From a virus, in IMG/VR virus record IMGVR_UViG_3300013093_000040, positions 1 through 64,000 of that record: a DNA stretch of 64,000 nucleotides; one strand, 5' to 3'. Of the stretch, positions 9,268-48,459 are shown in pieces; positions within the stretch are counted from its first letter, which is position 1, and each line of letters begins with the position of its first letter. Under the pieces are notes generated by a model. The model made no database searches and was not told the DNA's origin. It worked only from the letters and a program-made list of their open reading frames with translations. A program made the position numbers and the translations under genes.

Positions 9268-9272
9268 GTTTG

Positions 9273-9345
9273 TGATTCCGAGCAGGGTCGAACTGCTATA
9301 CTTTGCTTAGAAGGCAAATGTCCTAATCCATTAAACGACGGAACC
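9273..9345 (-). tRNA. tRNA-Arg(TCT)
   Basis: Acceptor GGTTCCG/CGGAATC, anticodon arm TTTGC-CTTCTAA-GCAAA, and T loop TTCGACC. It reads AGA codons, common in this AT-rich genome. Confidence 0.9.
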
Positions 9346-9350
9346 GTAAG

Positions 9351-9422
9351 AGCGGCGGAAAGGAATCGAACCTTCATCTCCAACTTGGAAGGATGGAGTA
9401 ATAGCCATTATACGACCACCGC
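9351..9422 (-). tRNA. tRNA-Gly(TCC)
   Basis: Acceptor GCGGTGG/CCGCCGC, anticodon loop CTTCCAA and T arm GAAGG-TTCGATT-CCTTT. The anticodon stem has one mismatch in this reading. Confidence 0.75.
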
Positions 9423-9433
9423 AAAATGTTTTG

Positions 9434-9505
9434 AGCCCAAACCCGGAACCGAACCGGAAACTTATGCTTACAAGGCATGCGTTTTTCCAGTTAAACTATT
9501 CAGGC
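9434..9505 (-). tRNA. tRNA-Thr(TGT)
   Basis: Acceptor GCCTGAA/TTTGGGC, anticodon loop CTTGTAA in stem CATGC/GCATA, and T loop TTCGGTT. One anticodon-stem mismatch is present. Confidence 0.75.
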
Positions 9506-9518
9506 AAAATAATTTCGT

Positions 9519-9585
9519 ACCGTACACAAGTGTCGATCTTGCCTGAGGGTCCTTATGAGGAACTCTTGTTCGCCGGAACGTACGG
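9519..9585 (-). tRNA. tRNA-like gene with CAT anticodon, reduced D arm
   Basis: Acceptor CCGTACG/TGTACGG pairs over 7 bp. The loop CTCATAA gives CAT. The T loop is ATCGACA instead of TTCGANN, and the 5' half is short and lacks the D-loop GG. It is a degenerate or unusual tRNA-Met candidate. Confidence 0.4.
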
Positions 9586-9640
9586 TGTAATAGTTTTAAA
9601 TGCTTCTTCAGTATTTGATATAATAATCAAACTTAATCGT

Positions 9641-9711
9641 TGCTGCGTCCTCGAATCGAACGAGGTTTATTTGGCTTATGAGACCAACCAGATACCTTAC
9701 CTCCCGCCAGC
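9641..9711 (-). tRNA. tRNA with CAT anticodon (Met or Ile2), poor acceptor pairing
   Basis: Anticodon arm TTGGT-CTCATAA-GCCAA and T arm CCTCG-TTCGATT-CGAGG are clear. The 3' acceptor ACGCAGC pairs only in part with the visible 5' side GCTGGCG. Confidence 0.6.
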
Positions 9712-9731
9712 TATGTAATTATTCAAAAATT

Positions 9732-10208
9732 TTATATTTTAGGAGTCAATGCGATGAAACTCTTGTTCCCCGCTTGGTGCTCCGTCCAATCCATGTTAAA
9801 AGCGTACGCCACGTACAGCGCAGTTGCTTTATCTGATTCTCTATTTGTGTCGTCGAACAGAATCGGTACGTTTCTGGGCAACAGATCCAAATTGTTTTTT
9901 ATGTTCGGTCTATTGGGACCCACCGGACCGTCGACTACGCACGCATCGTAGTGATTGTAAGTTAAATAATTTTCCACTCTTCTTCTATCGTACCAACCGT
10001 ACAAGAGAGGGGTGTGAAAGACTATTTTTCCGGGTTCATCAAAGGGTTTTAACTTTTCGTAATACTCTTCGTTGTCTTCTATGGATACTACGTAAGAAAA
10101 TATTTTTCTTAACTCAAGTGTGGCCGCTCCCGAACCTAATTCTAACAAAGTGGAACCCGGTTTTTTTGCCACTTTGTTGGCCAGCATGTCAAACATTTCA
10201 ACTGGCAT
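9732..10208 (-). CDS. SAM-dependent methyltransferase-like protein
   Basis: The 158-residue protein has the Rossmann methyltransferase opening STLLELGSGAATLELRKIF with the G-x-G loop near residues 24-28. The acidic ribose-binding residue follows in VVSIEDNEEYYEKL. YDACVVDGP gives the fourth-strand acidic motif and VPILFDDT the next strand. It is small and lies inside the tRNA cluster. The substrate cannot be told from sequence. Confidence 0.6.
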   Translation of the reverse strand: MPVEMFDMLANKVAKKPGSTLLELGSGAATLELRKIFSYVVSIEDNEEYYEKLKPFDEPGKIVFHTPLLYGWYDRRRVENYLTYNHYDACVVDGPVGPNRPNIKNNLDLLPRNVPILFDDTNRESDKATALYVAYAFNMDWTEHQAGNKSFIALTPKI

Positions 10209-10263
10209 TGACCAACCCTCAAAAACTTCCCTGTTTACCTATTGCATGAATAACCTTTTGTTG

Positions 10264-10336
10264 TACTGGAGGAAGGACTCGAACCTTCAACCTCGATGGT
10301 ATAAGCATCTTGCGCTAACCATTGCGCCACTCCAGC
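10264..10336 (-). tRNA. tRNA-Ile(TAT)
   Basis: Acceptor GCTGGAG/CTCCAGT, anticodon loop CTTATAC in stem AGATG/CATCG, T arm GAAGG-TTCGAGT-CCTTC. It reads the AUA codon directly. Confidence 0.85.
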
Positions 10337-10344
10337 AAATTTAA

Positions 10345-10426
10345 CTACCCACCCTTTAAGTAATCATCTCTGTGCCGCCATCCACGTCATGCGCTGGTTA
10401 TGCATGGCGGGTAGTGTAAATTTTTT
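10345..10426 (-). other. candidate structured RNA at the end of the coiled-coil gene
   Basis: On the minus strand CTACCC (gene end) can pair with GGGTAG about 70 bases on, and GCCAT/ATGGC and ATGC/GCAT pair inside. The element overlaps the last codons of the 10398 gene and separates it from tRNA-Ile. It may be a processing or termination structure. Confidence 0.25.
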
Positions 10427-11355
10427 GTATAGATATAAAACTAACCAATTCTTTTTTGGTGCTTACTATTTTAAAACCGTTATTATATATATCTATTGCG
10501 TAAATTACTTTTTCGAAAAATTTCGGTTGTTTTATAAAAGTTTTTACGGATTGATATCCATTTACAACAATTTTTACGCTCTTGGAATATTCCATTTCTT
10601 CTCTGTCCCTAAGGGAAATTTTACCGCTTCCGCCGTCAGTAGAAAGTACAATGCTTCCAGTAGCGTCCTTTACAACTACATAAACTTCTGCTGTATCGTT
10701 GTTCATCAATCTATTTTCAACGTCGAACGATATTTCAAGTTCGTCTGTTCTTTTAGCCGATTTGACCCTCTTTACTTCTCCGTTGTTTTTTACTTTAAGG
10801 GCGGTTACGTTAATCGAACGAGCGAACAATGTTGAACCAACGTCAACCATCGATTTTAATACTTCGTTGGTGTCCTTTACTGATTGTACCTGTTTTACTA
10901 GGTCGTCTCCCTGTTTTTGTAATGTATCAACTTTCCCTCTTAGTTCTGAATTCGCCTTTGCGATCTCTTCGTTTTGTGCAAGCAAAGAATTTATTTTTTC
11001 CTCTAATTGCTTGATCAACTCTTCGGCTTTCTTTTTTTCCGCTTCGGTCAAATTCTGTTTCGTTATCAACTTCCTTATTTCCCTTCTCAAACTGTTAACT
11101 TGGGAATTTTTACTGACCAACTTTGACTGCAACACACTATTTTCAGTTAACAGTGAATCCAATCTCACAAGGGCAGCGCTAAATTCTTTATCAACGTAAT
11201 CCTTTTCGACAGAAATTTTTGAATATAGTTCGTCCTGCCTTTTAGTGATCTCTGCGTGCTTGTTATTGTTGTAGAGAGCAACTCCCCCAACTTGCAAGAG
11301 CTAGAAAAAATAGTACAGAGATTACAAGATTTTTTCAGTGTTTTTTGATGTCCAT
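10398..11355 (-). pseudogene. membrane-anchored coiled-coil protein, 5' end frameshifted
   Basis: A long open frame (about 298 codons, TTG at 11297) encodes an extended coiled coil (about residues 15-150) and a beta-rich C-terminal domain. ATG at 11355 gives MDIKKH, then TGA at 11335-11337, then in the same frame KNLVISVLFFLALAS, an obvious membrane segment, before the frame shifts at a GGGGG run (11284-11288). Adding one A to the first A6 run, removing one from the second, and removing one G would restore one continuous protein. It is either decayed or affected by homopolymer sequence error. Confidence 0.6.
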
Positions 11356-11427
11356 TTTATTTAATTTTTAAGATGAACTATACATAGTGAAAAAACCGTG
11401 CCAAACTGTCGAATATTCCCACATTTT

Positions 11428-11670
11428 TTAAACGTCCCACTCCCTGCATCCGTGTTCGAAAGCTTCCTCAACAGAAAGTGTGGGATCATTTTTCATGGCC
11501 AACAAAGCAAAAACTATCACTTCAACGTCCAATCCACTTTCTTGTACGTATTGAAGCCTCGAACATATTTTGTCCATCGCCGAATCTATGTCCGATACTT
11601 CACTATCCAAACCGCTCTTCATTTGTAAAACTGTAGAAATTACCTCTTCGCCCGTTAATTCCGTATCCAT
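11428..11670 (-). CDS. small acidic hypothetical protein
   Basis: The 80-residue acidic protein starts MDTELTGEEVISTVLQ and looks mainly helical, with two Cys (CSRLQY and GCREWDV). It is flanked by tRNA genes in the cluster. I do not recognise a family, and no signal peptide or membrane segment is present. Confidence 0.45.
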   Translation of the reverse strand: MDTELTGEEVISTVLQMKSGLDSEVSDIDSAMDKICSRLQYVQESGLDVEVIVFALLAMKNDPTLSVEEAFEHGCREWDV

Positions 11671-11686
11671 AACTTTTAAATTTTAG

Positions 11687-11758
11687 AATTCTGTGAGAGA
11701 TTCGAACTCCCGTCTCCGGCTCCTTATGCCGGTGCTCTAACCACTGAGCTAACAAAAT
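11687..11758 (-). tRNA. tRNA, anticodon reads AAG (Leu?)
   Basis: Acceptor ATTTTGT/ACAGAAT and anticodon arm CCGGC-ATAAGGA-GCCGG are well paired, T loop TTCGAAT. By position the anticodon is AAG, unusual for a bacterium-type tRNA, and the variable arm is short. Confidence 0.55.
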
Positions 11759-11759
11759 C

Positions 11760-11981
11760 GACTACTTTTTAGAGCTTTCTGCAGGAGCTCAATTTAGTAG
11801 TGGGACATGAAAGTTATTCCTGTTTCTGCAGTCCAGTTTCGCTTTTCCAATCCCTTTGCTGATCTACCGGGAATTGAGCCCGATTCCTCCCGCCGCATTG
11901 CGGGTATGCACCTTACACCACAACCATGAAGCCAGAAATTTCGAACTTTCCAGCCCGGGGTCAATTACTCCCCGAGTTTGC
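11760..11981 (-). other. degenerate tRNA remnants
   Basis: This stretch has no protein gene. It holds a CTGCAGAAA direct repeat, an anticodon-like arm ACCCG with loop CAATGCGG, a T arm TCGGG-CTCAATT-CCCGG, and another T-arm-like GAAAGTTCGAAATTTC. None has a matching acceptor partner. They look like broken or rearranged tRNA halves. Confidence 0.35.
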
Positions 11982-12052
11982 CGAGAGTGGGAGGTTCGAA
12001 CTTCGACTTTCGTCGTGACAGGACGACGTGCGCGCCATTACACTACACCCTC
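11982..12052 (-). tRNA. tRNA-Asp(GTC)
   Basis: Acceptor GAGGGTG/CACTCTC and a perfect anticodon arm TCGTC-CTGTCAC-GACGA. The T arm around TTCGAAC is weakly paired. Confidence 0.7.
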
Positions 12053-12070
12053 GAAATTTTAATTAAACAG

Positions 12071-12148
12071 TACTACCGACCGGGATCGAACCGGCACGAT
12101 GTCCTCATTGAAAGTGAGGTGACCTATTCCCATTTAGTCCCCGGTAGC
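12071..12148 (-). tRNA. tRNA-Glu(TTC)
   Basis: Acceptor GCTACCG/CGGTAGT, anticodon arm CCTCA-CTTTCAA-TGAGG, T arm GCCGG-TTCGATC-CCGGT. Confidence 0.9.
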
Positions 12149-12194
12149 ATAAATGTAAAGAATCTATTTTAATTTTTACAATACATTTTTTCAG

Positions 12195-12277
12195 TAGTAG
12201 CGGTTGGAGTCGAACCAACAATCCATACAGATTATGTGATTTACAGTCACACGCCTGACCGCTTGAGCATCACTACC
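12195..12277 (-). tRNA. tRNA-Tyr(GTA), class II
   Basis: Acceptor GGTAGTG/CGCTACT, anticodon loop CTGTAAA in stem GTGA/TCAC, and a long variable arm of normal class II type. This shows long arms are kept in some tRNAs of this cluster. Confidence 0.85.
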
Positions 12278-12340
12278 AAATTGGAGGGAAGGGAGAATTT
12301 CGAAATCCACTTTAAATATAAATCATTATATAATATTAAT

Positions 12341-12802
12341 TCAATGATCTATAAATTTTTTTGCTTCATTAATCTTCTCTTTTGTGTTATTATACAAATC
12401 TCTCCATCTTATTCTTAAAATTTTCCATACATGCTTTATACATAATGCGTCTTTTTTATTATCTCTTTCTTTATACTCATAAAATCTTTTGTGTTGATCT
12501 CCGTCAATTTCAATAGCTTTTTTTAAATCAACCCAAGCAAAATCTAATGAGTATATTCCAATAGGATATTCAGTTTTATAATTCTTATCCAAAAATTCAT
12601 TTTTAATAATTTCAACTATCCTTTTCGAACTTACCAACGCACACTTATATTTAATCTCCTCAATCCTTCTCTTGGGTACATCGTAATGGTGCTTGTGAAA
12701 CCAACACTTTTTTATTCCCAAATCGTTCGCCATTTTGTACAAATTTTCAACGCTGTAAGGTTCGCACACTAAATGTCTACGTTCATCGCAATAGTACTTC
12801 AT
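12341..12802 (-). CDS. DUF4031-like N-terminus fused to a Vsr/DUF559-type endonuclease
   Basis: The 153-residue protein starts YYCDERRHL with KMANDLGIKKCWFHKHHYDVPKRR, matching the small DUF4031 family. The second half is a very short patch repair-like nuclease: IEIDGDQHKRFYEYKERDNKK and VWKILRIRW supply the usual catalytic D, H and basic residues. Such endonucleases are often selfish elements. The fusion suggests the nuclease landed at the end of a DUF4031 gene. It sits among tRNA genes. Confidence 0.6.
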   Translation of the reverse strand: MKYYCDERRHLVCEPYSVENLYKMANDLGIKKCWFHKHHYDVPKRRIEEIKYKCALVSSKRIVEIIKNEFLDKNYKTEYPIGIYSLDFAWVDLKKAIEIDGDQHKRFYEYKERDNKKDALCIKHVWKILRIRWRDLYNNTKEKINEAKKFIDH

Positions 12803-12808
12803 CTTTTG

Positions 12809-12893
12809 CGGAAGATAGAGGTAACGATCCTCTTTGAGTTTTACCCCAGCCTCAGTTTAGCAAACTGGCCATTTACCTTTCATGCAATCTTCC
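12809..12893 (-). tRNA. tRNA-Ser(GCT), class II
   Basis: Acceptor GGAAGAT/ATCTTCC is perfect. The anticodon loop TTGCTAA gives GCT, and a long variable arm is present. T loop is ATCGTTA. Confidence 0.75.
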
Positions 12894-12903
12894 AATTGAC
12901 GGC

Positions 12904-12976
12904 GGGTGTAGGGACGGTATCGAACCGTCTTCCCGGGCTCCACAAACCCGTGCATCACCTTAATGCTTCGAACACC
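12904..12976 (-). tRNA. tRNA-His(GTG)
   Basis: Anticodon arm CGGGT-TTGTGGA-GCCCG and T arm GACGG-TTCGATA-CCGTC. The extra G(-1):C73 pair typical of tRNA-His can form, but the inner acceptor stem has two mismatches. Confidence 0.75.
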
Positions 12977-12983
12977 GTTTAAA

Positions 12984-13062
12984 AAATCTCCTGTGTGCTA
13001 CTCCTACCGGTCCCATGTTCGGCGGTTAAAAGTAAGGTACATCTTTTAGTCACCCAGAGATT
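12984..13062 (-). other. degenerate tRNA-like sequence
   Basis: AATCTCT and GGAGATT can pair as a 7-bp acceptor stem about 78 nt apart, and a D-arm-like stretch follows. No normal anticodon or T arm is visible. Confidence 0.25.
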
Positions 13063-13065
13063 TTG

Positions 13066-13147
13066 CGGAGGGTGACGGACTCGAACCCTCACAAGTTTTA
13101 CCCCTTCACCGTTTTCAAGACGGCTAACTACTCCTTTAGGACCCTCC
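13066..13147 (-). tRNA. tRNA-Ser(TGA), class II
   Basis: Acceptor GGAGGGT/ACCCTCC perfect, anticodon loop CTTGAAA in stem CCGT/ACGG, long variable arm, T loop TTCGAGT. Confidence 0.85.
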
Positions 13148-13152
13148 AAAAA

Positions 13153-13506
13153 TCATTTATAATATATCCTCTCCGGGTACTCCCCAAACATAAACAGAGT
13201 CACTGGGCACAGCCACATGGTCAAGTTGGAGTAATCTATTCCTTTGTAATTGCCTATCCTGTAATAAGCTCCAAACTCATCCCCGAAATCGTCCTCTCTT
13301 TCCAGTGTTATGTACTCGGAACCTTCAAATTCTTCGGTGTCAAGTACCAACGTTATTTCTGATTCACCATAACTCAAAACGTCCAACCAATAGTCCGCTC
13401 CGGCCACCATCTGACACGCTTCCTTTGTTCCTCCTGCCTCTATGTAATCCGGTAAATCTGCGTACCAACAACCCGATGCTTCCTTGTAAAATCTTAACTC
13501 AATCAT
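13153..13506 (-). CDS. DUF6717-like protein
   Basis: The 117-residue protein starts MIELRFYKEASGCWYADLPDY and has MVAGADYWLDVLS near residue 33. These match the DUF6717 family as I remember it, a small acidic protein common in phages and Bacteroidota, function unknown. It lies between tRNA-Ser and tRNA-Gln genes. Confidence 0.6.
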   Translation of the reverse strand: MIELRFYKEASGCWYADLPDYIEAGGTKEACQMVAGADYWLDVLSYGESEITLVLDTEEFEGSEYITLEREDDFGDEFGAYYRIGNYKGIDYSNLTMWLCPVTLFMFGEYPERIYYK

Positions 13507-13522
13507 AACATTTATTTTTTAG

Positions 13523-13595
13523 TTGTCCCACTCCGAATCGAACAGAGATTACTAGGGCCAAATCCTAGTGTAATTAGCCATTATACCATGGGACA
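13523..13595 (-). tRNA. tRNA-Gln(TTG)
   Basis: Acceptor TGTCCCA/TGGGACA perfect, anticodon arm CTAGG-ATTTGGC-CCTAG, T loop TTCGATT. Confidence 0.9.
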
Positions 13596-13611
13596 GTTTA
13601 AACTTTTTTAG

Positions 13612-13685
13612 AGCGACTAGCCAGATTCGAACTGGCATCTCAGCCTTGACAAGGCCGAACACTAACCGTTGCACCACACCCGTGT
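13612..13685 (-). tRNA. tRNA-Asp(GTC), acceptor stem does not pair
   Basis: Anticodon arm CGGCC-TTGTCAA-GGCTG and T arm GCCAG-TTCGAAT-CTGGC are good. The 3' acceptor TAGTCGC has no partner in the 5' sequence (ACGGGTG), so it is probably non-functional or rearranged. Confidence 0.55.
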
Positions 13686-13733
13686 TTCTAAATTTCCCTA
13701 TTTCAAAGAACCCAACATTCAATACTTTCATTG

Positions 13734-13820
13734 TGCGCCCAGAAGGATTCGAACCTTCAACTGACTTACGTCTCCCCACTGGTTAAAAGCCAGTTGCTCT
13801 ACCAATTGAGCCATGAGCGC
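13734..13820 (-). tRNA. tRNA-Lys(TTT) with a long variable arm
   Basis: Acceptor GCGCTCA/TGGGCGC, anticodon arm ACTGG-CTTTTAA-CCAGT, T arm GAAGG-TTCGAAT-CCTTC. The variable region is about 19 nt and can form GAC-GTAA-GTC; normal tRNA-Lys has 5 nt. Confidence 0.8.
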
Positions 13821-13877
13821 ATTATTTTTTAAATGCCGCACTCACGCTTATTCGGTGCAGCAACTAACGTTTTCGTT

Positions 13878-14531
13878 TCATATTTTTGTTTTTTTCATGT
13901 ATTGATTAAAAATATCTCTATCAACAATTTCTAAATCAATATTATTTTGCTCTAAAACTAATTTCATTTTCAATCTATCATTTCCCCACCAATGACCTTT
14001 TACTTCAAAATATTTTTGTAATTTTGTACTCCAAAAATCTGGAGTGTAATAATGAATTTTTCCATTATGATCTTTCCACTTAAATGAATGTTTTTTATGC
14101 CCAACGCCAATTTTTATCCAATTATCATCTATTAAATTTAAATACGTGGAAAAATCTTTTTCCCAACTACCTTGCGCTTTAAATTTAATTCCAAAATTAT
14201 TACAAACTTCAAACCACTTACATCGGCCACCTTTATTATTCTTAGAGAGTTTTTTTCCTATTTTGATTTTAGATTCTATACTATGTTTTTTATTTTTCCA
14301 ATAAGGTATTAACTCTCCTAATTTTACCTTATTTGAATATAATTCTGCGCTTTTTTTAATTATGCTATTAGTTTCTTTTGTAAGACCTAAATTCCACGCT
14401 TTTCTTCCTTCTTTATAAGGTTTATTTATCTTTTTTATATGTTCTAATCCTTCTTTTGTATGACTTCTCCAATTATGACTTGTCAAAGCTTTTTTATTCT
14501 TTAGTTCTTTATTACAAATTTGACATATCAT
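13878..14531 (-). CDS. homing endonuclease-like protein (zinc finger, NUMOD3, PD-(D/E)XK)
   Basis: The 217-residue protein starts with a C2H2-type finger CQICNKELKNKKALTSHNWRSH region. NUMOD3-like repeats (KNKKHSIESKIKIGKKLSK) follow about residues 80-98. The C-terminal nuclease core HYYTPDFWSTKLQKYFEVKGH gives PD-x9-E-x-K. It is free-standing among tRNA genes and probably selfish. It is more AT-rich than its neighbours, consistent with transfer. Confidence 0.7.
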   Translation of the reverse strand: MICQICNKELKNKKALTSHNWRSHTKEGLEHIKKINKPYKEGRKAWNLGLTKETNSIIKKSAELYSNKVKLGELIPYWKNKKHSIESKIKIGKKLSKNNKGGRCKWFEVCNNFGIKFKAQGSWEKDFSTYLNLIDDNWIKIGVGHKKHSFKWKDHNGKIHYYTPDFWSTKLQKYFEVKGHWWGNDRLKMKLVLEQNNIDLEIVDRDIFNQYMKKTKI

Positions 14532-14536
14532 ATTTT

Positions 14537-14610
14537 GTGGTAACGAGAAGTATCGAACTTCTCTCTTAAGTTTTTCAGACTTACGCTAATCCATCTCAGC
14601 TACGTTACCA
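14537..14610 (-). tRNA. tRNA-Phe(GAA)
   Basis: Acceptor TGGTAAC/GTTACCA perfect, anticodon arm TAAGT-CTGAAAA-ACTTA, T loop TTCGATA. It is the first tRNA of the cluster in the direction of transcription. Confidence 0.85.
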
Positions 14611-32358: not shown

Positions 32359-34008
32359 TTACATTCCCATCATGGGATTTACTGATTCTTTTTCGTCCTT
32401 CGATTTCTTTTCAAAAATTACGCTTTCCGTGGTTAGTATGGTCCCAGCAACTGAAGCAGCGTTCTTCAATGCGGTAATTACCACTTTACATGGGTCTATC
32501 AACCCCTCTTCTATGGAATCGACCACCTTTCCCCTTTTTGCGTCGTAAGTAGCGGATTTTTCGTTACCAGTTGAAGAATCTTGATCTAAAACTTTTTGTG
32601 CGATCTCGTACCAATTTTCCCTGCCTGTGTTTGCGAGTATGGTTCTAAACGGAGATTCGCAGGCTTTTTTGACAATGTCGTGAGCAATGGCCTCAGGACC
32701 AATTTCTGGACTCAATAAAGTTTGAACAGCTTTGTAAAGGGCCATTCCGCCGCCCGCAACTATTCCGTCCGCAAGAGCTGCCTTAGTGGCGTACAGCGCA
32801 TCTTCTACCCTGTCTCTCTTCTCTTTTATTTCAACTTCTGAGTTTCCTCCTACGTTAATGATTGCAACTCCACCCACCAATTTTCCAAGTCTTTCTTGCA
32901 ATTTTTCTTTTTCGTAAAAAGAACTTGCCTTTTCTATTTGTTCCTTTATCTCTTCCGCTCTTTTGACTATCGATGCTTCTTCTCCCTTACCATCAACGAT
33001 GGTGGTTTCCTCCTTGGAAATCGTTGCCAATCTTGCCTTGCCCAAAAAACTATCTAATTGAAGCGAAGTTAACTTGTCCAATTTGTGGCCTTTGTCCTTT
33101 GATATTACTTGACCCCCCGTAAGAATTGCTATGTCCTCCAAGATCAAGGTTTTCCTCTCTCCAAAATCGGGTGCTTTTACCGCGCACACTTGCACGATTC
33201 CCCTCATTTTGTTTACTATCAGAGTGGCAAGAGCTTCTTCTCCTATGTCCTCAGAAATCATCAAAAGGGATCTGTTCTCAGCGTTGACCTTGTTCAATAC
33301 CTGCAAAAGTTCTTGCGCTGATGATATTCTGCCGTCGTAAATTAACACGTAGGGATTTTCAAGTCCGCACTGCATGTTTGTGTTATTGGTAACAAAGTAG
33401 GGGGATTTATAACCGCGATCGAATTGCATTCCCTCAACGACTTCTAAGCTAGTTTCACCTGATTTTGATTCCTCTATTGTGACTATGCCCTCGCGACCAA
33501 CTTTTTCTATCGCGGTCGCTATTAAGTTACCCACCTCTTCGTCGTTATTGCCTGAAATGGTGGCAACTTGTTTGATTTGTTCTTGCGAAGATACTTCAAC
33601 CGATTTGCTTTTAACTCCCAAAATTACTGCGTCAACAACCTTATCTATGGCCAATTTGATTTCGATCGCGTTTGTCCCCTGTCTTATGTTTTTTAATCCC
33701 TCTTCTACTATTTTCGTGGCCAATAACGTAGAAGTCGTGGTACCGTCTCCCGCCTCGTTTGCGGATTTTATGCTAACCTGTTTCACTAGGTTAGCACCGA
33801 TTGTCTCTATCGGGTCCTCTAATTCACCAAAGGCCTTTGCGACTGACACGCCGTCCTTACTGACTCTGACCTCTCCGTATTGATCATTTATCAAAACAGT
33901 CCTACCGCCAGGTCCCAAAGTTGAACTAACAGCAGTGTTCAACTTAATTATTCCCGATAACAATTTTTCTTTCAATTCTTGTCCGTGGACAAATTGGGTT
34001 TTACTCAT
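32359..34008 (-). CDS. groEL: GroEL chaperonin
   Basis: The 549-residue protein is full-length GroEL: SSTLGPGGRTVLIND (nucleotide loop), EAGDGTTTSTLLAT, the apical domain GMQFDRGYKSPYF, and GIVAGGGMALYKA. Unlike bacterial GroEL, the C-terminus ends NPMMGM without GGM repeats. It folds phage or host proteins. Together with GroES and Hsp20 it forms a phage chaperone cluster and is followed by a terminator. Confidence 0.97.
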   Translation of the reverse strand: MSKTQFVHGQELKEKLLSGIIKLNTAVSSTLGPGGRTVLINDQYGEVRVSKDGVSVAKAFGELEDPIETIGANLVKQVSIKSANEAGDGTTTSTLLATKIVEEGLKNIRQGTNAIEIKLAIDKVVDAVILGVKSKSVEVSSQEQIKQVATISGNNDEEVGNLIATAIEKVGREGIVTIEESKSGETSLEVVEGMQFDRGYKSPYFVTNNTNMQCGLENPYVLIYDGRISSAQELLQVLNKVNAENRSLLMISEDIGEEALATLIVNKMRGIVQVCAVKAPDFGERKTLILEDIAILTGGQVISKDKGHKLDKLTSLQLDSFLGKARLATISKEETTIVDGKGEEASIVKRAEEIKEQIEKASSFYEKEKLQERLGKLVGGVAIINVGGNSEVEIKEKRDRVEDALYATKAALADGIVAGGGMALYKAVQTLLSPEIGPEAIAHDIVKKACESPFRTILANTGRENWYEIAQKVLDQDSSTGNEKSATYDAKRGKVVDSIEEGLIDPCKVVITALKNAASVAGTILTTESVIFEKKSKDEKESVNPMMGM

Positions 34009-39101: not shown

Positions 39102-40100
39102 CTATTCGCAAGACACACAGTAGTTAAAATTTTTTGCAAAAGTACTTGCTGCGCTGGTATTGTGTTGATAGTAAAGGGATTTTATACCCATGCTGTGGGC
39201 CAAAAGCATAAGTTCGTTTACTTCTTTAGCCTTTGTGTCTGCCGTAATAAATAAATTTAAAGATTGTCCTTGATCTATGTATTTTTGTCTTTGAGCTGCT
39301 TGTACAATGATTTCTGTTTGAGAAATTTCCCTAGCGGTTTTAAACACCATTTTTTCGGCTTCTGTCAAAAAATCCAAGTGAAGAACACTGCCCTGTTGTT
39401 TTTGTATGCTTTCCCAAATTTCTTCAGTATTCTTTCCCTTTGACTCAAGCAGTTTTTCCAAAAAAACGTTTTTGATCACAAATTTTCCCTTTGATAAATC
39501 TTTGATCATATAGTTGCTCATCCATGGTTCTATACCTTGAGAAACTTGCATAATGAAAGACGAAGATGTGGTTGGTGCGATTGCTTGGGTGGTAGTATTT
39601 CTTCTTCCCAAACCTTTTGTCATTTCGCACTCTCCAAATAAATCCGCCAATTTTTTAGAAGCTGCCAAAGAATTTTCTTGTATGTTTCTTTGAATTTCTA
39701 AATTTATTTCTCTTGCTTGTAAACTTTCAAAAGGAATCATTTTACTCTGTAAAAGAGAATGGTACCCTAAACGACCTATTCCTAAAGCTCTGTGCTTTAT
39801 AGCAAAGTTAGCCGATCTTTCTAAAAATTTTATTTTTGATGCCTTCTCTATGAATTCTGTCATAGCCGCATCAAGTAAAAAAGTAATTACTTCAACACAA
39901 TCTGTGTCCTTCCAATCTTCGTAATAAAAATCATTTAACGAACCCAAATCGCACACAAAAGAATTGTCTACGTCAGAGGGAAGCATGATTTCCGTACAAT
40001 TGTGTACTAATATATCATTAGCATAGAAATTATGATTTTTTTCAACAGTAATATCATAAACTGGTATTTTTATTTTTTCTTTTCTTATTTTTAATCCCAT
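39102..40100 (-). CDS. nrdA: ribonucleotide reductase large subunit, C-terminal piece with split-intein C half
   Basis: Residues 1-34 (MGLKIRKEKIKIPVYD...DILVHN) are an intein C-terminal half ending HN. The extein starts at Cys35 in CTEIMLPSD, which is the catalytic thiyl cysteine of the reductase (SNLCTEI region). The remaining 298 residues are the reductase C-terminal part and end NYCVSCE, the thioredoxin-reacting cysteine pair. It is joined to the product of 41215-42279 by protein trans-splicing. The leader closely resembles that of the NrdA-2 split intein family described from metagenomes. Confidence 0.93.
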   Translation of the reverse strand: MGLKIRKEKIKIPVYDITVEKNHNFYANDILVHNCTEIMLPSDVDNSFVCDLGSLNDFYYEDWKDTDCVEVITFLLDAAMTEFIEKASKIKFLERSANFAIKHRALGIGRLGYHSLLQSKMIPFESLQAREINLEIQRNIQENSLAASKKLADLFGECEMTKGLGRRNTTTQAIAPTTSSSFIMQVSQGIEPWMSNYMIKDLSKGKFVIKNVFLEKLLESKGKNTEEIWESIQKQQGSVLHLDFLTEAEKMVFKTAREISQTEIIVQAAQRQKYIDQGQSLNLFITADTKAKEVNELMLLAHSMGIKSLYYQHNTSAASTFAKNFNYCVSCE

Positions 40101-40127
40101 TTTAATTTAAAATTTGATTTATGTTAG

Positions 40128-41177
40128 TTAATGGTTTTTTAAGTATATAAATCTTATGTTGTTTAATTTACAATACTCGATTGCTGAATCAATTTTAATT
40201 TGCTCATTTTCCTTTCCACTTTTACCTCTTATAAATCCTTTAATTTCCAATAGAATTAGTTCATTGTTTATCAAAATTAAAAAATCTGGTAAGTATGTTT
40301 TGCCATCTAATCTTCTTATATAGAAAGGTTCATACTCATACTGTATTTTATTGTTCTCCAAAAAATTTATAGTTGATAACTCCCAAGAACTTCTATAACG
40401 AATCAATGTTTTATTTTTGCAATGTTTCACTTTTATGTAACCAGTTTTGAAAAATTTAGTCTGACCCATATTTTCATTTCTAGTCATTGCAACAGTACTT
40501 ATAATGCTCGCCGTCTCTGATGAAATAGAAACGTAATTAGTTTCATCAATTTCTACGTTTTCATACTTTTTAACAAAATCAGAGTGCAAAAGTTCGTTTG
40601 GATACTTTTTACTAACCATGAATTTTTTTATGCAAGAAATTTTATATTTTGCACTTTTTCTTACATCAGATAGGTGTTTACCGTACAAATTAATCACTTC
40701 TTCAACATTCTTGCCATTTATGTCTATTCCATGATTAGTTAAATACGTTTTTTTAAATTCTAAACTTCTGTTATGCTCAGCAAGTTTGTCTTTATGACTT
40801 TGGCTTCTATTCTCATGATACTTAGTAGACCACACCCTCATTTTATCTACCCAATCTTTTGTTTGTTTTTTTCCTCTTAGGGAACTTCCCTTCATGTAAT
40901 TAACAAGATGTTTTTCCCATACAAAGTATCCCTTTTTGCTCCAAATTTTAACACTGTTGTTTATAGAATATTTTTCCAAAAAAGTTTTATAATCTAATAC
41001 GCCTTTATGCATTAAATAGTTTAGAGCTTTACACACCTGTAAATCATCTTGTATGCTACTCTTTAAATAATCTATTAAATCTTTGTTAAAACAACTATAA
41101 AATTCTTCACTTTTTAATAAAGTAGATATCGATACTTTTTTGCGTCTTGATTTTTTCACTTGTCTTGATTTTTCCAT
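40128..41177 (-). CDS. PD-(D/E)XK homing endonuclease between the split-intein halves
   Basis: The 349-residue protein ends in a nuclease core YRSSWELSTINFLENN, YLPDFLILINNELILLEIKG (PD...E-x-K). Its N-terminal 200 residues are basic and may bind DNA. It lies between the two nrdA gene pieces, 27 and 37 bases from them, as in fractured-gene loci. It probably homes to intein-less nrdA genes. It starts near an ATATTTATC element. Confidence 0.85.
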   Translation of the reverse strand: MEKSRQVKKSRRKKVSISTLLKSEEFYSCFNKDLIDYLKSSIQDDLQVCKALNYLMHKGVLDYKTFLEKYSINNSVKIWSKKGYFVWEKHLVNYMKGSSLRGKKQTKDWVDKMRVWSTKYHENRSQSHKDKLAEHNRSLEFKKTYLTNHGIDINGKNVEEVINLYGKHLSDVRKSAKYKISCIKKFMVSKKYPNELLHSDFVKKYENVEIDETNYVSISSETASIISTVAMTRNENMGQTKFFKTGYIKVKHCKNKTLIRYRSSWELSTINFLENNKIQYEYEPFYIRRLDGKTYLPDFLILINNELILLEIKGFIRGKSGKENEQIKIDSAIEYCKLNNIRFIYLKNH

Positions 41178-41181
41178 TTAT

Positions 41182-41190
41182 GATAAATAT
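41182..41190 (-). promoter_or_regulatory. ATATTTATC element at the endonuclease start
   Basis: Four bases before ATG 41177. Confidence 0.35.
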
Positions 41191-41214
41191 GAAAAAATCA
41201 AAGATGTGCACAGG

Positions 41215-42279
41215 CTATTTAAGTATTTTTAAAATATCATCTTCTTTTAAGTCTTTGGCCATCACATATCCTCTATTTACAGTATATACTTGGTGTTCCG
41301 GTGTACAAATTATACTCTTTCCTGTTTCCTCATCTTCTATAGTCAATACTTCAGCTTCCTTATTCATCAAAGCTCCATTTAGGATTTTTGTGAATTCAAC
41401 CTCGTCTGATTCTATACAATATGATTTAACCAGTATCTCTTGTCCAGACTTGAATAACTCAATTGCAGTTTTTATATCAACTTTGTGTTGTTCTCCATCA
41501 AAAATAATAGTGACTATTGAATTCTCAGCAAGACACATTTGAGAAGCTTTTAAAACATTTTTACCCCTATAGACTTCGGGGGTCGATTCGTGATTGTTTG
41601 CATTATCAGTAAAAAATATATAAGGAAGCCCAGTTTCAAATTTTTTCTGTATTACTTTCGCCCATAACTTTCTTTTACTGGCGTCTCCTGCTTTCATTTC
41701 TTCTATCCACTTGGTGGAAACGCAAACCCCCCAAGTAATGTGTTGTATTGGATCTCCCTCTGCACGAATATTTAACCACTCTTCTATGTCTGGATGTTCT
41801 ATGTCTTGATACCCTGAAAAATACCCGCGTCTTACTGATCCTTGATTCATTGATTGCGAGCATGCTTGAAACAATTCCAAAAAAGCTTTAGAACCATTGC
41901 TATGACCATTATTCTTAATCACGCTTCCTCGACCCCTTAAAGCTCCAAAATATCCAGAAGTTCCGCCTCCAAACTTACTCATGGTACCTATTTCCGCAAC
42001 AGAACTAAGAATACTTTCTACGCTATCGCTTACATATACACCAAAGCAACTAATCGGTAATCCCCTATCGGTTCCAAAATTAGTCCAAATGGGAGTACTT
42101 AAACTTATCCAACCATTGGATATATATTTTTGTAATTTTTCGCTGTAACCAGGTACCTTTAAAATTTTCTCTGCTGAGTCTCCAATTATTTTTATTCTCT
42201 CTTGTACAGTTTGCCCAGGTAGAAGATAATCTTTTTCCAAAAAAGCTTTTGAATATTTATTTAACCATTTGATCTTCAT
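41215..42279 (-). CDS. nrdA: ribonucleotide reductase large subunit, N-terminal piece with split-intein N half
   Basis: The first 248 residues are reductase: LSTPIWTNFGT, LPISCFGVYV (redox Cys), SKFGGGTSGYF and LPYIFFTDNANN, without an ATP cone. At KASQM the intein begins with Cys249 (CLAENSIVTII) and includes block B (ICTPEHQVYTVNRGYV), about 106 residues. It ends there. The matching C half is on a separate gene 1.1 kb downstream. NrdA-2-type N halves are recalled to look very similar. Confidence 0.93.
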   Translation of the reverse strand: MKIKWLNKYSKAFLEKDYLLPGQTVQERIKIIGDSAEKILKVPGYSEKLQKYISNGWISLSTPIWTNFGTDRGLPISCFGVYVSDSVESILSSVAEIGTMSKFGGGTSGYFGALRGRGSVIKNNGHSNGSKAFLELFQACSQSMNQGSVRRGYFSGYQDIEHPDIEEWLNIRAEGDPIQHITWGVCVSTKWIEEMKAGDASKRKLWAKVIQKKFETGLPYIFFTDNANNHESTPEVYRGKNVLKASQMCLAENSIVTIIFDGEQHKVDIKTAIELFKSGQEILVKSYCIESDEVEFTKILNGALMNKEAEVLTIEDEETGKSIICTPEHQVYTVNRGYVMAKDLKEDDILKILK

Positions 42280-43633: not shown

Positions 43634-44131
43634 CTACTTTCCGATCAATTGAACAAATTTTTCGTTTAAATAGCTCTTTTCGTCTTGGGTAAACGAAGAT
43701 TTGTTTATCATTTGGGGTTTACGATCAAAATTTTGGCCCGTATCGAATGTCAATTCTTCTTCACCCATTTCGTCATTACTCAATTCTATTTTCCCGTATC
43801 CGGTATTAACTTTTGCGTTGTACGTCATACCGTCTCCACCGTACCTGTTTTTCATTATGTGGATCCTGCCCGTGCCGTTGACCTTGTCCTGCCGCTTTCT
43901 TGACAAGGACATGGCAAAGTCCGCAATCATCATCTTGTTGTAGGATCCTGCAGCTTTGTCTCCCTCAATAACATCGTTATGGGCTCCAGAATTATGGCTG
44001 TACACTCCATTTGCAAAAAACATGTGGGTGTCTTCCACTGTTATGTCCACAGTGTCTGTGTACCCTATCAACTCTATGCTCTCTATCTCTGAAAGATCAA
44101 AGTCTTTCGAATTCAGTTCGTGTTTATTCAT
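43634..44131 (-). CDS. replicative helicase, C-terminal piece with split-intein C half
   Basis: Residues 1-47 end THMFFANGVYSHN, an intein C half, and the extein starts at Ser48 (SGAHNDVIEGD). The rest, 118 residues, includes IMKNRYGGDGMTYN and is the helicase C-terminus. It must be spliced to the middle piece encoded just upstream, only 44 bases away. Its insertion site (SQVNR/S) is the same as recalled for the gp41-8 split intein. Confidence 0.92.
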   Translation of the reverse strand: MNKHELNSKDFDLSEIESIELIGYTDTVDITVEDTHMFFANGVYSHNSGAHNDVIEGDKAAGSYNKMMIADFAMSLSRKRQDKVNGTGRIHIMKNRYGGDGMTYNAKVNTGYGKIELSNDEMGEEELTFDTGQNFDRKPQMINKSSFTQDEKSYLNEKFVQLIGK

Positions 44132-44175
44132 TTTCTTTTTTTATAAAGTTTTTACATTTGTTTAATATAGTATCT

Positions 44176-45282
44176 TTATTTTTTTATAAAAAGTTTGTTT
44201 CCAACTATCAAACCTGTAGCTATAGATTTTAACTTTCCATACTGAGTAGGTAATATATGATTAGCAGAGACATTTATTTCTTTACCATTTTTCAATCTAA
44301 TTCTATAGGTAGGTTGTTTTTGAACCGGATAAACTTTAGTGACTTTTTTGAATCCTTTATGAGTTAATATCTGATCTCCAATTCTAATGTCTCCTATCCT
44401 AACTTTGCCATTTGGAGTTTCTACTTTATCGTCTACATTATGGCATCGGTTTACTTGGGATACTGTCCATATCGGCACTTTTAATTCCCTTGCCATTCCC
44501 TTTACCGCAGTATACACATCGTCTATCGCGTCTTTTGGATCTATCGATCTAGTCTTGCTCTTTAAAAGATCCACGTAGTCTATGATAACCAAGTCAGGTG
44601 GATACTTTAGGTCCCTACACTTTTGAATGTGAGACTCTATCGTGGCCGGCCCAACTTTTCCCATAGGATACTCTTTGATAATGAGCTTTCCTGGTAATTT
44701 TTCTATCGCTGCAGTAACTTTGTCCTTGTGCAAGTGAATTTGTTGAGCATCGATGCCCGTAAATATCGCATCGTACCTCTTACCTACGTAGTCTTCCGAG
44801 AGTTCTAACGTGTAGTGACACACTGTAAATCCTGCCTTAACTGCAGCGGCTCCCAAATTTACTAAACACCAAGAGTTGTGAGAAAGTATGCCGTTTGAAT
44901 AGTAGCAGTGAACTTCATCAACAGACATGTCGTAAAGAACTTTGTCTTTTTTAAGATGAACTTTTTTTGTGATTTTTGTTATTCCTTTTTCTGTTGTCAC
45001 TAAGTCCCCCACGTCCAAATCTTCAATTTTTTTCCACTCTTCGCCCACCTTTAACATGTGATGATTTGAGCTGGTCAGCGTTTTCCCGTTTGAAAAATAA
45101 GTTGTCACTCTTTTTTGTTTTTCAGTAGTAAACAAATTGACTATCTGTTTGTAGCCGTAAGGAGTCTTTACCTTTAAAGGAAAATTAATCAGCCTAACAT
45201 TATTTGGCTTGGGCTCTATTGCCAACTTCATGAATAAATTTTCTATCGAAATTTTTCTTTGGACTTTTCTGGTCTTTAACAT
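44176..45282 (-). CDS. replicative helicase, middle piece flanked by two split-intein halves
   Basis: Residues 1-136 are an intein C portion that includes block B (SSNHHMLKVGEE) and ends EVHCYYSNGILSHN. The extein 137-279 runs SWCLVNLGAAAVKAGF to WTVSQVNR, with Walker B PPDLVIIDYVDLL. From Cys280 a second intein N half of 89 residues follows (CHNVDDKVETP...NKLFIKK). Two trans-splicing reactions are needed to join it to both neighbours. This is a rare double-ended arrangement. Confidence 0.9.
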   Translation of the reverse strand: MLKTRKVQRKISIENLFMKLAIEPKPNNVRLINFPLKVKTPYGYKQIVNLFTTEKQKRVTTYFSNGKTLTSSNHHMLKVGEEWKKIEDLDVGDLVTTEKGITKITKKVHLKKDKVLYDMSVDEVHCYYSNGILSHNSWCLVNLGAAAVKAGFTVCHYTLELSEDYVGKRYDAIFTGIDAQQIHLHKDKVTAAIEKLPGKLIIKEYPMGKVGPATIESHIQKCRDLKYPPDLVIIDYVDLLKSKTRSIDPKDAIDDVYTAVKGMARELKVPIWTVSQVNRCHNVDDKVETPNGKVRIGDIRIGDQILTHKGFKKVTKVYPVQKQPTYRIRLKNGKEINVSANHILPTQYGKLKSIATGLIVGNKLFIKK

Positions 45283-46139
45283 ATATAACTTTTTACTCTA
45301 TTTAATTCAAATTCTTTGTTTGAAATCCAATCATTCTCCCAAATTATTAAAACTTCGTATCCCAAATTTTTATAATGATTTATTTTTTCATTGTCTTTTT
45401 TCCAAATATCCTTTACGATTCCGGGTTTTATTTTTTCATCCTCTTTATAAAATGCGGGGTTAGCATGCCAATAATCTCCAAATATCTCGATTATAAATTT
45501 TTTATTGATCAATATATCGGTTATATAATGATCTATTGAAATATTGCATTCAGTATTTTCAAATAAATTTTTTATCTGATTAAAACAATCTATTTCTAAC
45601 TTAGACCTACTATCTTTATAGTTTTCAAAATGCTTAACCCACTTTTTTGGATCTGTGTTTAAAATATGTTGCTTTAAATTTGCGCGTATTTGATCTATAG
45701 ATTTTTTGCTGTGGTGTTTGCCTGTAAATTTTAAAGATTTTGAACTTCTAACAGATTGAATTTTACTAACTTGAAAAATTGATTCTTCATGAGAAAATCC
45801 CTTTTTCATCCAATGTTCTATACAAATGGGTGATGCCTGTTTCTGTTTTATAGAAAGCAAATCTTTTTTTAGTAATTCGTCCCCTTTTGCCTGTTTGTCT
45901 ATTCTTGATAAAAAAAACGATCTTTGAACCTCTTTTACTTTACTTTTGGCATCTTCCAAACTAAAACCTCTATAGACCCAATATTCTATAGTTCTATTAC
46001 TATGGCCCGTCATTAATCTTGATTTTGGATATAATTTTTTATATTCTTTAGTCTTTAATGAATGACTGTCTTTTAGATGATTCTGCAAATTGTACTTTTC
46101 TAGATGGCCACATATTTCACAAATTAATCCTAATTGCAT
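45276..46139 (-). CDS. Vsr-like homing endonuclease between helicase split-intein halves
   Basis: The 287-residue protein has an N-terminal finger CEICGHLEKYNLQNHLKDSH and a C-terminal Vsr-like core FIIEIFGDYWHANP, KDNEKINHYKNLGYEVLIIW. This is the nuclease type reported inside fractured split-intein loci. It separates the N and middle pieces of the helicase and probably targets the uninterrupted gene. Start supported by ATATTTATA 15 bases upstream. Confidence 0.85.
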   Translation of the reverse strand: MQLGLICEICGHLEKYNLQNHLKDSHSLKTKEYKKLYPKSRLMTGHSNRTIEYWVYRGFSLEDAKSKVKEVQRSFFLSRIDKQAKGDELLKKDLLSIKQKQASPICIEHWMKKGFSHEESIFQVSKIQSVRSSKSLKFTGKHHSKKSIDQIRANLKQHILNTDPKKWVKHFENYKDSRSKLEIDCFNQIKNLFENTECNISIDHYITDILINKKFIIEIFGDYWHANPAFYKEDEKIKPGIVKDIWKKDNEKINHYKNLGYEVLIIWENDWISNKEFELNRVKSYIC

Positions 46140-46154
46140 AATATTTTAATTTAT

Positions 46155-46163
46155 TATAAATAT
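46155..46163 (-). promoter_or_regulatory. ATATTTATA element at the endonuclease start
   Basis: It is 15 bases before ATG 46139, just beyond the end of the helicase N-piece. Confidence 0.45.
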
Positions 46164-46957
46164 CATCCTCCTAGTTTTTGGGTCTCAACAAATTCAAAGA
46201 AATTTTTTACTTCGTATCCCCACATGTGCATTCCATCTATATTAAACTCCGCAAAAGAATCGAACCAAATAGTCGCTGTCTTTCCTTTATTATTTACGTC
46301 AATTCCTATTTCTTCGTACTCTATTTCTATTATAGAATTTGGTCCAATGCACTTTCCTCCTCCAGGATTACCGAATATCAATCCCAAATCTCCTACGCCA
46401 AGGCCCCCCATCAATAGTTTATTTAAATTTTCCCACGGTGTTGCAACCGGCGATCTTTGATCCGTTCTATACCTTGTTTCCATATCTTTTTCGTACTCGT
46501 GACCTATTGTTTTGTCTTGGCCCGCCTTCGCTGCCGTATTTACTATGTGACGAATGTCCTCGTATTCACCTCTTTCCAACAATTTAACAGACTGCAATAT
46601 CGCATTTTTTAACTGTTGGTTCCTACAAAAATTAGAAAATTCCTGCTCCACGTATTCCCTATCATCGTTTGTGGCTTTAAGTGATTCTTTAAGTTGGTCT
46701 ATGACACTAACCTTTAAAATTTCGTTGTCTATTTTTTTAACTTCGACTTGTAACGATTCTGTGGACGGCGTAGTATGATATTTTTGGTAATACCTTAAAG
46801 TTTCAGACACAATCCACTTGTGAGCAGGAGAATCAAACATTTCCAAATCCAATACATCGTTTACGTTCTGCAAAAACTCTTTATGTTTTAATAAACTCGA
46901 TAAAACCTTAATTTGAAAACCGTTACCGTAACTTTGTAAAGTATTTAGTACTGCCAT
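46163..46957 (-). CDS. replicative helicase, N-terminal piece ending in a split-intein N fragment
   Basis: Residues 1-202 are a DnaB/gp41-type N-terminal domain and linker up to Walker A (GLIFGNPGGGK). At Cys203 an intein N fragment begins (CIGPNSIIEIEYEE), only 62 residues, with no block B; block B is on the C half. The split point is thus earlier than in most split inteins, similar to the short-N AceL-TerL type. The spliced helicase would be about 463 residues, close to T4 gp41 (475). Confidence 0.9.
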   Translation of the reverse strand: MAVLNTLQSYGNGFQIKVLSSLLKHKEFLQNVNDVLDLEMFDSPAHKWIVSETLRYYQKYHTTPSTESLQVEVKKIDNEILKVSVIDQLKESLKATNDDREYVEQEFSNFCRNQQLKNAILQSVKLLERGEYEDIRHIVNTAAKAGQDKTIGHEYEKDMETRYRTDQRSPVATPWENLNKLLMGGLGVGDLGLIFGNPGGGKCIGPNSIIEIEYEEIGIDVNNKGKTATIWFDSFAEFNIDGMHMWGYEVKNFFEFVETQKLGG

Positions 46958-46964: not shown

Positions 46965-47429
46965 TTACATTTTATAAGTAACAACTGTTACTTTGCAATC
47001 TACCAATTCAGTTTTAATAATATTTTTAATTTTTTCCCAATCCCCTCCTGCCAAACCGGCGCCAATTTTAGGAAGACCTATGTGTTTTCCTGAAAATCTT
47101 AAATTTATCTTCCTCATGCACAATGTCAAAGCTTCGTAGTCAAATGGTTTTAATTTAGGTCCAACTAATCTTTGTGTATAAGAATTTACAACATATACTT
47201 TTTTATCAGGTTTTACTGGTATAAGCTTGAAATCTATTTGTCCCAATTTATTTACATCTCCAGCGGTAGAAAGCTCTTCCAAAGGAAATGTATTACAACC
47301 GAAAGTTCGAGCCATCATTACGGCTATTCCTGCTCCCATATTGCACAAACAATTACAACCATGAGTTATCACGTCAAAATTTCCTTCTTTTGCTAATTTA
47401 ATTAAATCTCCCTCTATTTCTTGATACAT
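46965..47429 (-). CDS. macro-domain protein (ADP-ribose-1''-phosphate phosphatase-like)
   Basis: The start at 47429 (MYQEIEGDLIKLAKEG) avoids overlap with the upstream exonuclease gene. The 154-residue protein has macro-domain motifs VITHGCNCLCNMGAGIAVM, VYVVNSYTQR and IGLPKIGAGLAGGDW. It binds ADP-ribose or removes ADP-ribose adducts. It could reverse host ADP-ribosylation defences or balance the phage ADP-ribosyltransferase-like protein at 63344 (inference). Confidence 0.85.
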   Translation of the reverse strand: MYQEIEGDLIKLAKEGNFDVITHGCNCLCNMGAGIAVMMARTFGCNTFPLEELSTAGDVNKLGQIDFKLIPVKPDKKVYVVNSYTQRLVGPKLKPFDYEALTLCMRKINLRFSGKHIGLPKIGAGLAGGDWEKIKNIIKTELVDCKVTVVTYKM

Positions 47430-47430
47430 T

Positions 47431-48459
47431 TTATTTGTATTTTTCCAATTCGTTAAATTTATCAAAAAGCCACAATGTCAAATTATTGATGCTCTTTCCC
47501 AAATCATCCTCTTCGTAAAGTTCAGCAAATTCCCTCGGTCTAAAAGATTTATGGGGATTTTTAAGTACATGATCTATCGTTATAACAGAATCTTCAGGAA
47601 TGTTTGGATTTTTTAGGTCCATTAGCTTTTCATTAATGAACAATTGATTTTTAAAAGCTAGTATTTTTTCAAACATAGATCCCTTAGAAATCTCTGCCTT
47701 TTCAATAACTTCTTTTAGAGTAAAAATTTTATCAAACGAAAGTTCTGGATAGTGTTTCAAAAGAGTTTTTTGACCGAGTCCTCTGACTCCGGGAACGTTA
47801 TCTCCACTATCGCCCATTAATATCTTCTCCATTAAAAAATTCTGTGGCGTCACTCCGTACTCTTCTACAACTTGTTTTGGTTGATAAAACTTTTTCTTTA
47901 TGGGGGAATACACTGTAATTTTATCGTTCACAAGTTGTAAATAATCCCTATCGCTAGAAACTATCGTAACTTCCCCAGGCAATTTTCCAACTAAATATCC
48001 TATCACATCATCGGCTTCTATTTTGTCAACAGACAAAAGATCTACCGGCAAGCACTTCAAATAATCTATTAGTCTTAGAATTTGATTTGTTATGGATTCA
48101 GCCTCTTGTTCTTGATTGTCAAAAAGGTCCCAATTTGTGACTCTGCGATAACCCCTATTTGCTTTGTATTCTGGGTATATGTACCTTTTATTTGTTGACC
48201 CACCCTGGCCATCAAAGACTAGAATGACCCTGGTGGGCCTAACTAAATTTATTGCATAACCAAGGGATTTTAAATATCCGGTCAATCCCCCAATGTGGTG
48301 ACCGTGTTTATTAACGTGATTGATTATTGCAAAAGATCTTATGAAAGAATTCAAAGAGTCTATGATTAGAACCCTATCGTTAAGCTTTAATGGATCTTTT
48401 TTATCAATCGATGAATCCTCTTTCAAGGATTTCAACATTTCTTTGTATCTGTCTTCCAT
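47431..48459 (-). CDS. 5'-3' exonuclease / flap nuclease (Pol I N-domain or RNase H-like)
   Basis: The 342-residue protein has the nuclease acidic sites LIIDSLNSFIRSF, VFDGQGGSTNKR, KIEADDVIGYLV, TIVSSDRDYLQLV and ILMGDSGDNVPGVRGLGQKT (helix-hairpin-helix). It removes RNA primers and flaps, replacing the 5' nuclease domain missing in the phage polymerase. It overlaps uvsX as TAATG. Confidence 0.92.
   Translation of the reverse strand: MEDRYKEMLKSLKEDSSIDKKDPLKLNDRVLIIDSLNSFIRSFAIINHVNKHGHHIGGLTGYLKSLGYAINLVRPTRVILVFDGQGGSTNKRYIYPEYKANRGYRRVTNWDLFDNQEQEAESITNQILRLIDYLKCLPVDLLSVDKIEADDVIGYLVGKLPGEVTIVSSDRDYLQLVNDKITVYSPIKKKFYQPKQVVEEYGVTPQNFLMEKILMGDSGDNVPGVRGLGQKTLLKHYPELSFDKIFTLKEVIEKAEISKGSMFEKILAFKNQLFINEKLMDLKNPNIPEDSVITIDHVLKNPHKSFRPREFAELYEEDDLGKSINNLTLWLFDKFNELEKYK

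Follow-up and report, generated by a model that had tools for sequence, protein, structure and literature searches.

The question raised by this locus is how a phage obtains its replicative helicase when the gene is broken into three. The sequence is IMG/VR virus record IMGVR_UViG_3300013093_000040, a 70.5-kb contig; its positions 1 to 64,000 are called the window. An original prediction, made from the sequence alone, held that three gene pieces at 43634-46957, all on the minus strand, encode one gp41-type helicase whose parts are joined by two different split inteins. We consider this very probably correct: to judge from their sequence, the three open reading frames (ORFs) would specify a single gp41/DnaB-type helicase assembled by the trans-splicing of two split inteins. 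The anatomy of the locus, its splicing residues, selection, synteny, empty alleles, and mosaic transfer are shown by the sequence. Because the three proteins carry two different matching intein pairs, the enzyme is most likely joined after translation.

Anatomy of the locus

Frames and junctions were read directly from the sequence. The features are as follows, with lengths in amino acids (aa).

46163-46957, minus strand: N piece, ending GNPGGGK/CIGPNS...
46352-46957, minus strand: helicase N extein, 202 aa, with the P-loop GNPGGGK at its end; weak Pfam match to the DnaB N domain
46166-46351, minus strand: intein 1 N half, 62 aa, with Cys1, the first beta strand, and an acidic tail; stop codon at 46163-46165
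45276-46139, minus strand: HEN1, a free-standing gene for a Vsr-like, presumed homing endonuclease, 287 aa, between the intein 1 halves; profile and fold match to Vsr
44176-45282, minus strand: middle piece, with an intein C half ending ILSHN/SWC, Walker B DLVIIDYVD, and the end SQVNR/CHNVDD...
44875-45282, minus strand: intein 1 C half, 136 aa, with block B SxxH and ILSHN at its end; VidaL profile match
44446-44874, minus strand: helicase middle extein, 143 aa, containing Walker B and running from the P-loop Ser through SQVNR
44179-44445, minus strand: intein 2 N half, 89 aa, with Cys1 and block B SANH; stop codon at 44176-44178
44132-44175, minus strand: 44-bp gap between the intein 2 halves, without an endonuclease
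43634-44131, minus strand: C piece, with an intein C half at its start, ending YSHN/SGAH
43991-44131, minus strand: intein 2 C half, 47 aa, with YSHN at its end
43637-43990, minus strand: helicase C extein, 118 aa, with Ser+1 first

Direct reading bore out what had been said of each piece: the N piece, at the predicted place and on the predicted strand, runs from GNPGGGK into an intein N fragment starting CIGPNS; the middle piece has ILSHN/S, a Walker B motif, and SQVNR/C with a second intein N half; and the C piece has an intein C half ending YSHN/S. Cutting at the predicted splice points gave extein and intein parts of 202+62 aa for the N piece, 136+143+89 aa for the middle piece, and 47+118 aa for the C piece. 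The joined exteins come to exactly 463 aa, where a product of roughly 463 residues had been predicted. The stop of HEN1 overlaps the start of the middle piece. Only junction 1 of the helicase has an endonuclease gene in the window; the 44 bp at junction 2 are empty.

Identity of the helicase

The joined 463 aa matched the structure of the T4-type gp41 helicase (PDB 8DTP) with an E value of 3.8e-23 over query residues 18-399. DnaB_C scored above the Pfam cut-off, and an N domain and a RecA-like motor with Walker A and Walker B were found along the full length. Pfam and PDB searches of the pieces also returned Intein_splicing/HINT and the gp41-1 and VidaL inteins. In Flavobacterium phage immuto the helicase is intact (450 aa) and aligns to the three pieces in order, its residues 4-203, 202-367, and 347-422 matching the N, middle, and C pieces with E values of 4e-68, 2e-46, and 4e-28. 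The window and immuto share the gene order gp32-like SSB, RecA-like recombinase, 5'-3' exonuclease, helicase, NrdB, and NrdA; this orthologue in the syntenic place, together with the 8DTP match, sustains the assignment as a gp41-type helicase. Because the helicase and the surrounding gene order match those of immuto, the host is probably a Bacteroidota bacterium. A macro-domain-like protein (46965-47465) lies between the exonuclease and the helicase and is not at that place in immuto. An intact close relative, L011 (related loci are designated by L numbers), has a middle extein 97% identical to that of the window.

Two inteins of different class

Intein 1 interrupts GNPGGGK/S, the P-loop itself. 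The best PDB profile match of its C half was VidaL (6VGV; E 5e-9), and the engineered consensus intein CatC (6dsl) matched less well (3.3e-7). A homologue in L025 is contiguous, with a predicted HINT fold (pLDDT 88, pTM 0.79). The best PDB fold match of this model was again VidaL, with a TM score of 0.82 by target length, and its sole clearly disordered stretch, at about residues 17-36, corresponds to the split position of the homologues. Judged by profile and model, intein 1 is a VidaL-like, early-split intein, broken after the first beta strand. The N half of VidaL is about 16 aa; intein 1 differs in its longer N half (62 aa, with a conserved acidic tail) and in its insertion at a P-loop. 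In 11 phages, thirty columns of the C half do not vary, SxxH and SHN among them. The N halves could not be aligned to the contiguous L025 intein beyond the first strand. A TerL-associated match in Aeromonas phages was 29% identical. No relatives of intein 1 were found in the bacterial and archaeal genome contigs scanned, and neither a close relative nor the double arrangement was found in isolated phages.

Intein 2 interrupts SQVNR/S. Aligned with gp41-1 (PDB 6QAZ), as the original prediction had suggested, its N half matched with a profile E value of 4.8e-19. Its halves of 89 and 47 aa correspond to the canonical split of gp41-1/gp41-8-type inteins (about 88 plus 40-47 aa, in a T4-like helicase), and the split position, Ser+1, and T4-like helicase host are the same as for gp41-1; by its sequence intein 2 is classed as gp41-1-like, with a canonical split. 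In the more distant relatives L120-L138 a similar intein lies 15 residues downstream of the SQxxR/S point used by intein 2. A contiguous relative at the same SQxxR point occurs in a distant helicase (L116, 3846-6296), without an endonuclease. Among isolated phages the best helicase relative of intein 2 was in Shigella phage ESh36, where the break lies elsewhere in the gene. This cultivated T4-type phage (L082; ON528746, 2882-5862) has gp41 in two pieces with a split intein; the pieces flank an endonuclease-like ORF and are annotated merely as DNA primase/helicase fragments.

Because intein 1 has a VidaL-like early split and intein 2 a gp41-1-like canonical split, the two differ in class and in split point.

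Splicing residues, selection, and charge

The features of a split intein are present in the sequence: Cys1, block B SxxH, a C-terminal HN, Ser+1, and parts divided over two genes. The ratio of nonsynonymous to synonymous substitution (dN/dS) was 0.046-0.08 for the intein 1 halves (window vs. L010), 0.065 for the intein 2 C half (window vs. L004), and 0.024 for the helicase middle piece (vs. intact L011); comparisons with more distant relatives were not used, because synonymous sites were saturated. By these values the intein halves and exteins are under strong purifying selection. The prediction of two different split inteins is supported on several grounds: intact catalytic residues, purifying selection, an intact gene in relatives, and different classes.

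The N and C halves have net charges of -7 and +11 in intein 1 and of +12 and -8 in intein 2. The signs are the same in a distant three-piece locus, L005; in each case the two ends of the middle piece carry positive charge and their partners negative charge. Opposite polarity would favor correct pairing and disfavor cyclization; occurring in two three-piece lineages, it is suggestive only and no proof of selection, because the C halves of relatives filled at site 1 alone span -5 to +12. As a general rule for intein 1, the charge pattern was rejected on this range.

Proposed assembly and a presumed homing endonuclease

Each helicase piece would be translated on its own. Intein 1 (62+136 aa) would rebuild the P-loop by joining GGGK to SWCL, and intein 2 (89+47 aa) would join SQVNR to SGAH, so that two protein trans-splicing reactions would yield the 463-aa helicase and then its hexamer.

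HEN1 has an ExxGDxWH core, with D208, E218, G221, D222, W224, and H225 invariant. A profile search returned Vsr (1odg/1vsr/1cw0) with E about 0.001. The predicted model (pLDDT 85) had Vsr 1cw0 and I-Bth0305I 3r3p as its top Foldseek matches (E 0.0015-0.005, probability 1.00). On sequence and model, HEN1 is Vsr-like (EDxHD) and a presumed homing endonuclease, predicted to cut the intein-free allele; it presumably acts on intein-free helicase genes near the P-loop codons, after which the cassette would be copied in. An endonuclease at junction 2, such as L005, L006, and L025 have, was probably also present at one time and has been lost.

Allelic states among relatives

Relatives from IMG/VR scans were classified at both junctions, site 1 being the P-loop and site 2 SQxxR. 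Because the loci were found partly with intein queries, the counts of states are not frequencies. The two insertion points are identical to the residue across dozens of phages. Both sites are filled in the window and its near-copies L002-L004, in L005, and in L025; site 1 alone is filled in about 25 contigs, and site 2 alone in L006, L080, L115, L262, and more distant contigs. More than 200 loci, including L011, are empty at both. At site 1 the intein is contiguous in L025, split without an endonuclease in L010, L013, L016, and L105, and split with an endonuclease in most. At site 2 it is contiguous in L116 and L125; of the split forms, those of L005, L006, and L025 have an endonuclease and that of the window has none. 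L005 represents the complete form, with three pieces and an endonuclease at each junction. Double filling fell in three separate places on a quick helicase tree with L025 on a long branch; at least 14 changes were counted at site 1 and six at site 2, gains and losses being indistinguishable in this tree.

Another double case, with a different pair of sites, is L125 (3477-5865), in which a gp41-type helicase has one intein, contiguous, at SQxxR and another, split, only about 15 residues further. In L025 (4254-6206 and 6263-8011; locus GC 22%) the helicase and the site-2 endonuclease contain in-frame TGA codons, two of which occupy positions that are Trp in relatives (SQDLFW in L006, DGDW in L005); in this virus TGA is probably translated as Trp.

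Recent transfer between phages

A free-standing endonuclease gene between intein halves was found both at helicase junction 1 and in a second fractured gene of the window, NrdA, which has the following parts.

39102-42279, minus strand: fractured NrdA with split intein 3 and an endonuclease
41536-42279, minus strand: NrdA N extein
41218-41535, minus strand: intein 3 N half
40128-41177, minus strand: HEN3 endonuclease
39999-40100, minus strand: intein 3 C half
39105-39998, minus strand: NrdA C extein

Compared with the window, nrdB and the NrdA N extein of L004 are about 77% identical and its NrdA exteins 77-80%, whereas identity reaches 99.5-100% over the entire cassette of NrdA intein and endonuclease; the mismatches closest to the intein lie 13 nt before it and 38 nt after it. 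At the L004 helicase, the region from HEN1 (the part compared) through the intein 2 N half is 98.6-100% identical, whereas the intein 2 C half is only 86% identical and the C extein 67%. This sequence pattern marks a recent, apparently endonuclease-driven transfer with flanking co-conversion, in which the helicase tract also took in the middle extein together with half of intein 2.

Alternative explanations

It is very unlikely that the gene is dead or degenerating, with the phage relying on host DnaB or another helicase. Broken genes do occur in phage genomes, and the junction 2 endonuclease appears to have been lost in the window; however, purifying selection is strong on both exteins and intein halves, and the splicing residues are invariant in 11 intein 1 homologues. 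Moreover, an intact helicase gene elsewhere, which the original prediction had named as evidence against itself, was looked for, and no second DnaB-type helicase was found in the phage's own 70.5-kb record or in five other virus records, all of which may be incomplete; two of the five exceed 200 kb (297-kb and 221-kb), both with a related fractured helicase. The pieces might instead act unspliced, as fragments that associate non-covalently; in some T-even-like phages a genes-in-pieces ribonucleotide reductase reportedly keeps its function in this form (Friedrich 2007, cited in PMC3322345). Unspliced action of the helicase pieces is less probable still: the GGGK/S break lies within the P-loop and leaves tails of 62 and 136 residues, across which function would be unlikely, and the intein catalytic residues would then not remain conserved. 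An assembly or sequencing artefact can hardly be credited. Although the record is a metagenome assembly, the identical arrangement occurs in two more metagenome contigs, L002 and L003, at 99.98-100% identity, and L005 has the same architecture with a middle piece only 50% identical.

Cross-reaction between the intein 1 C half and the intein 2 N half, which would cyclize or mis-join the middle extein and make assembly inefficient or self-limiting, is unlikely, though less so than the preceding alternatives. The order of the middle piece as read directly, intein C half, extein, intein N half, is the topology used for cyclic proteins. Yet its two intein parts have net charges of +11 and +12 and their true partners -7 and -8, with the same signs in L005, which would disfavor self-pairing, and the intein 1 C half and intein 2 N half overlap, each containing block B. 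In other early-split inteins, C halves can react with N halves that are not their partners (PMC3443213), and by this precedent the intein 1 C half may do so; this weighs against assembly by two trans-splicing reactions, as do the following points. Because the record is a 70.5-kb fragment, an intact helicase gene could conceivably lie elsewhere in the genome. Contig L004 may partly be an assembly chimera, the main caveat on the transfer, although the edges of its near-identical blocks lie within 13-69 nt of an intein boundary. Finally, we infer from sequence the splicing itself, its order, its orthogonality, the absence of cyclization, and the endonuclease target.

Joining of the three pieces by trans-splicing remains the preferred explanation. 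More tentatively, we propose a natural three-component, two-reaction trans-splicing system whose early-split and canonical-split inteins may be orthogonal, and its middle piece proof against cyclization, through opposite charge polarity and different split points, and that may have arisen repeatedly in phage helicases by independent homing.

Other genes in the window

The window contains 17 tRNA genes at 8746-14609, interspersed with two endonuclease-like ORFs (12341-12802, DUF559/MTES_1575; 13878-14531, weak Phage_endo_I), and a GroEL/Cpn60 gene at 32359-34008. An Rfam scan of the window returned only these tRNAs, and on this result the idea of an RNA element at the helicase locus, such as a group I intron, was rejected.

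Relation to known systems

Dassa and colleagues reportedly described in 2009 fractured phage genes with split inteins and free-standing Vsr-like endonucleases, gp41 and NrdA being among the host genes. As in those genes, a replication enzyme of an environmental phage is broken here by a split intein with an endonuclease between the halves; the window differs in having two breaks in one gene, early-split and canonical inteins combined, and one junction without an endonuclease. It is the known fractured-gene arrangement, doubled within one gene. Because both breaks fall in one gene, one piece carries parts of both inteins, the C half of one and the N half of the other.

The original prediction called two junctions in one enzyme, one of them at the P-loop, unusual. 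Double inteins as such have precedent. The DnaB of M. smegmatis has two cis inteins of different class; as in the window, one of them interrupts the P-loop and has the Ser of that loop as its +1 residue. Unlike the window, the inteins are contiguous, the second is at motif H4 and not SQxxR, and the gene is unbroken (PMC6195587). Two inteins in one phage gene were also reported in Campylobacter phage IBB_35 (PMC3322345). Assembly of a protein from three segments by two orthogonal split inteins is an engineered method (PMC12707363, PMC11271493); it likewise uses three polypeptides and two pairs to make one product, but is man-made, whereas the present case is natural. A limited literature search returned no natural gene with two split inteins and no natural protein assembled from three chains in this way, which is weak evidence of novelty.

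The locus widens a known class of broken phage genes and illustrates how mobile cutting enzymes make such breaks accumulate. With one essential enzyme in three pieces, two trans-splicing reactions are forced to run side by side, and the middle piece is shaped like the constructs used for cyclic proteins. At the same residue there is an allelic series: empty, contiguous, split, split with an endonuclease, and endonuclease lost. Because of this series and a clean recent transfer, the origin of split inteins becomes directly testable. The locus also offers natural, possibly orthogonal intein pairs for three-segment assembly, one of them of the rare early-split kind at the P-loop.
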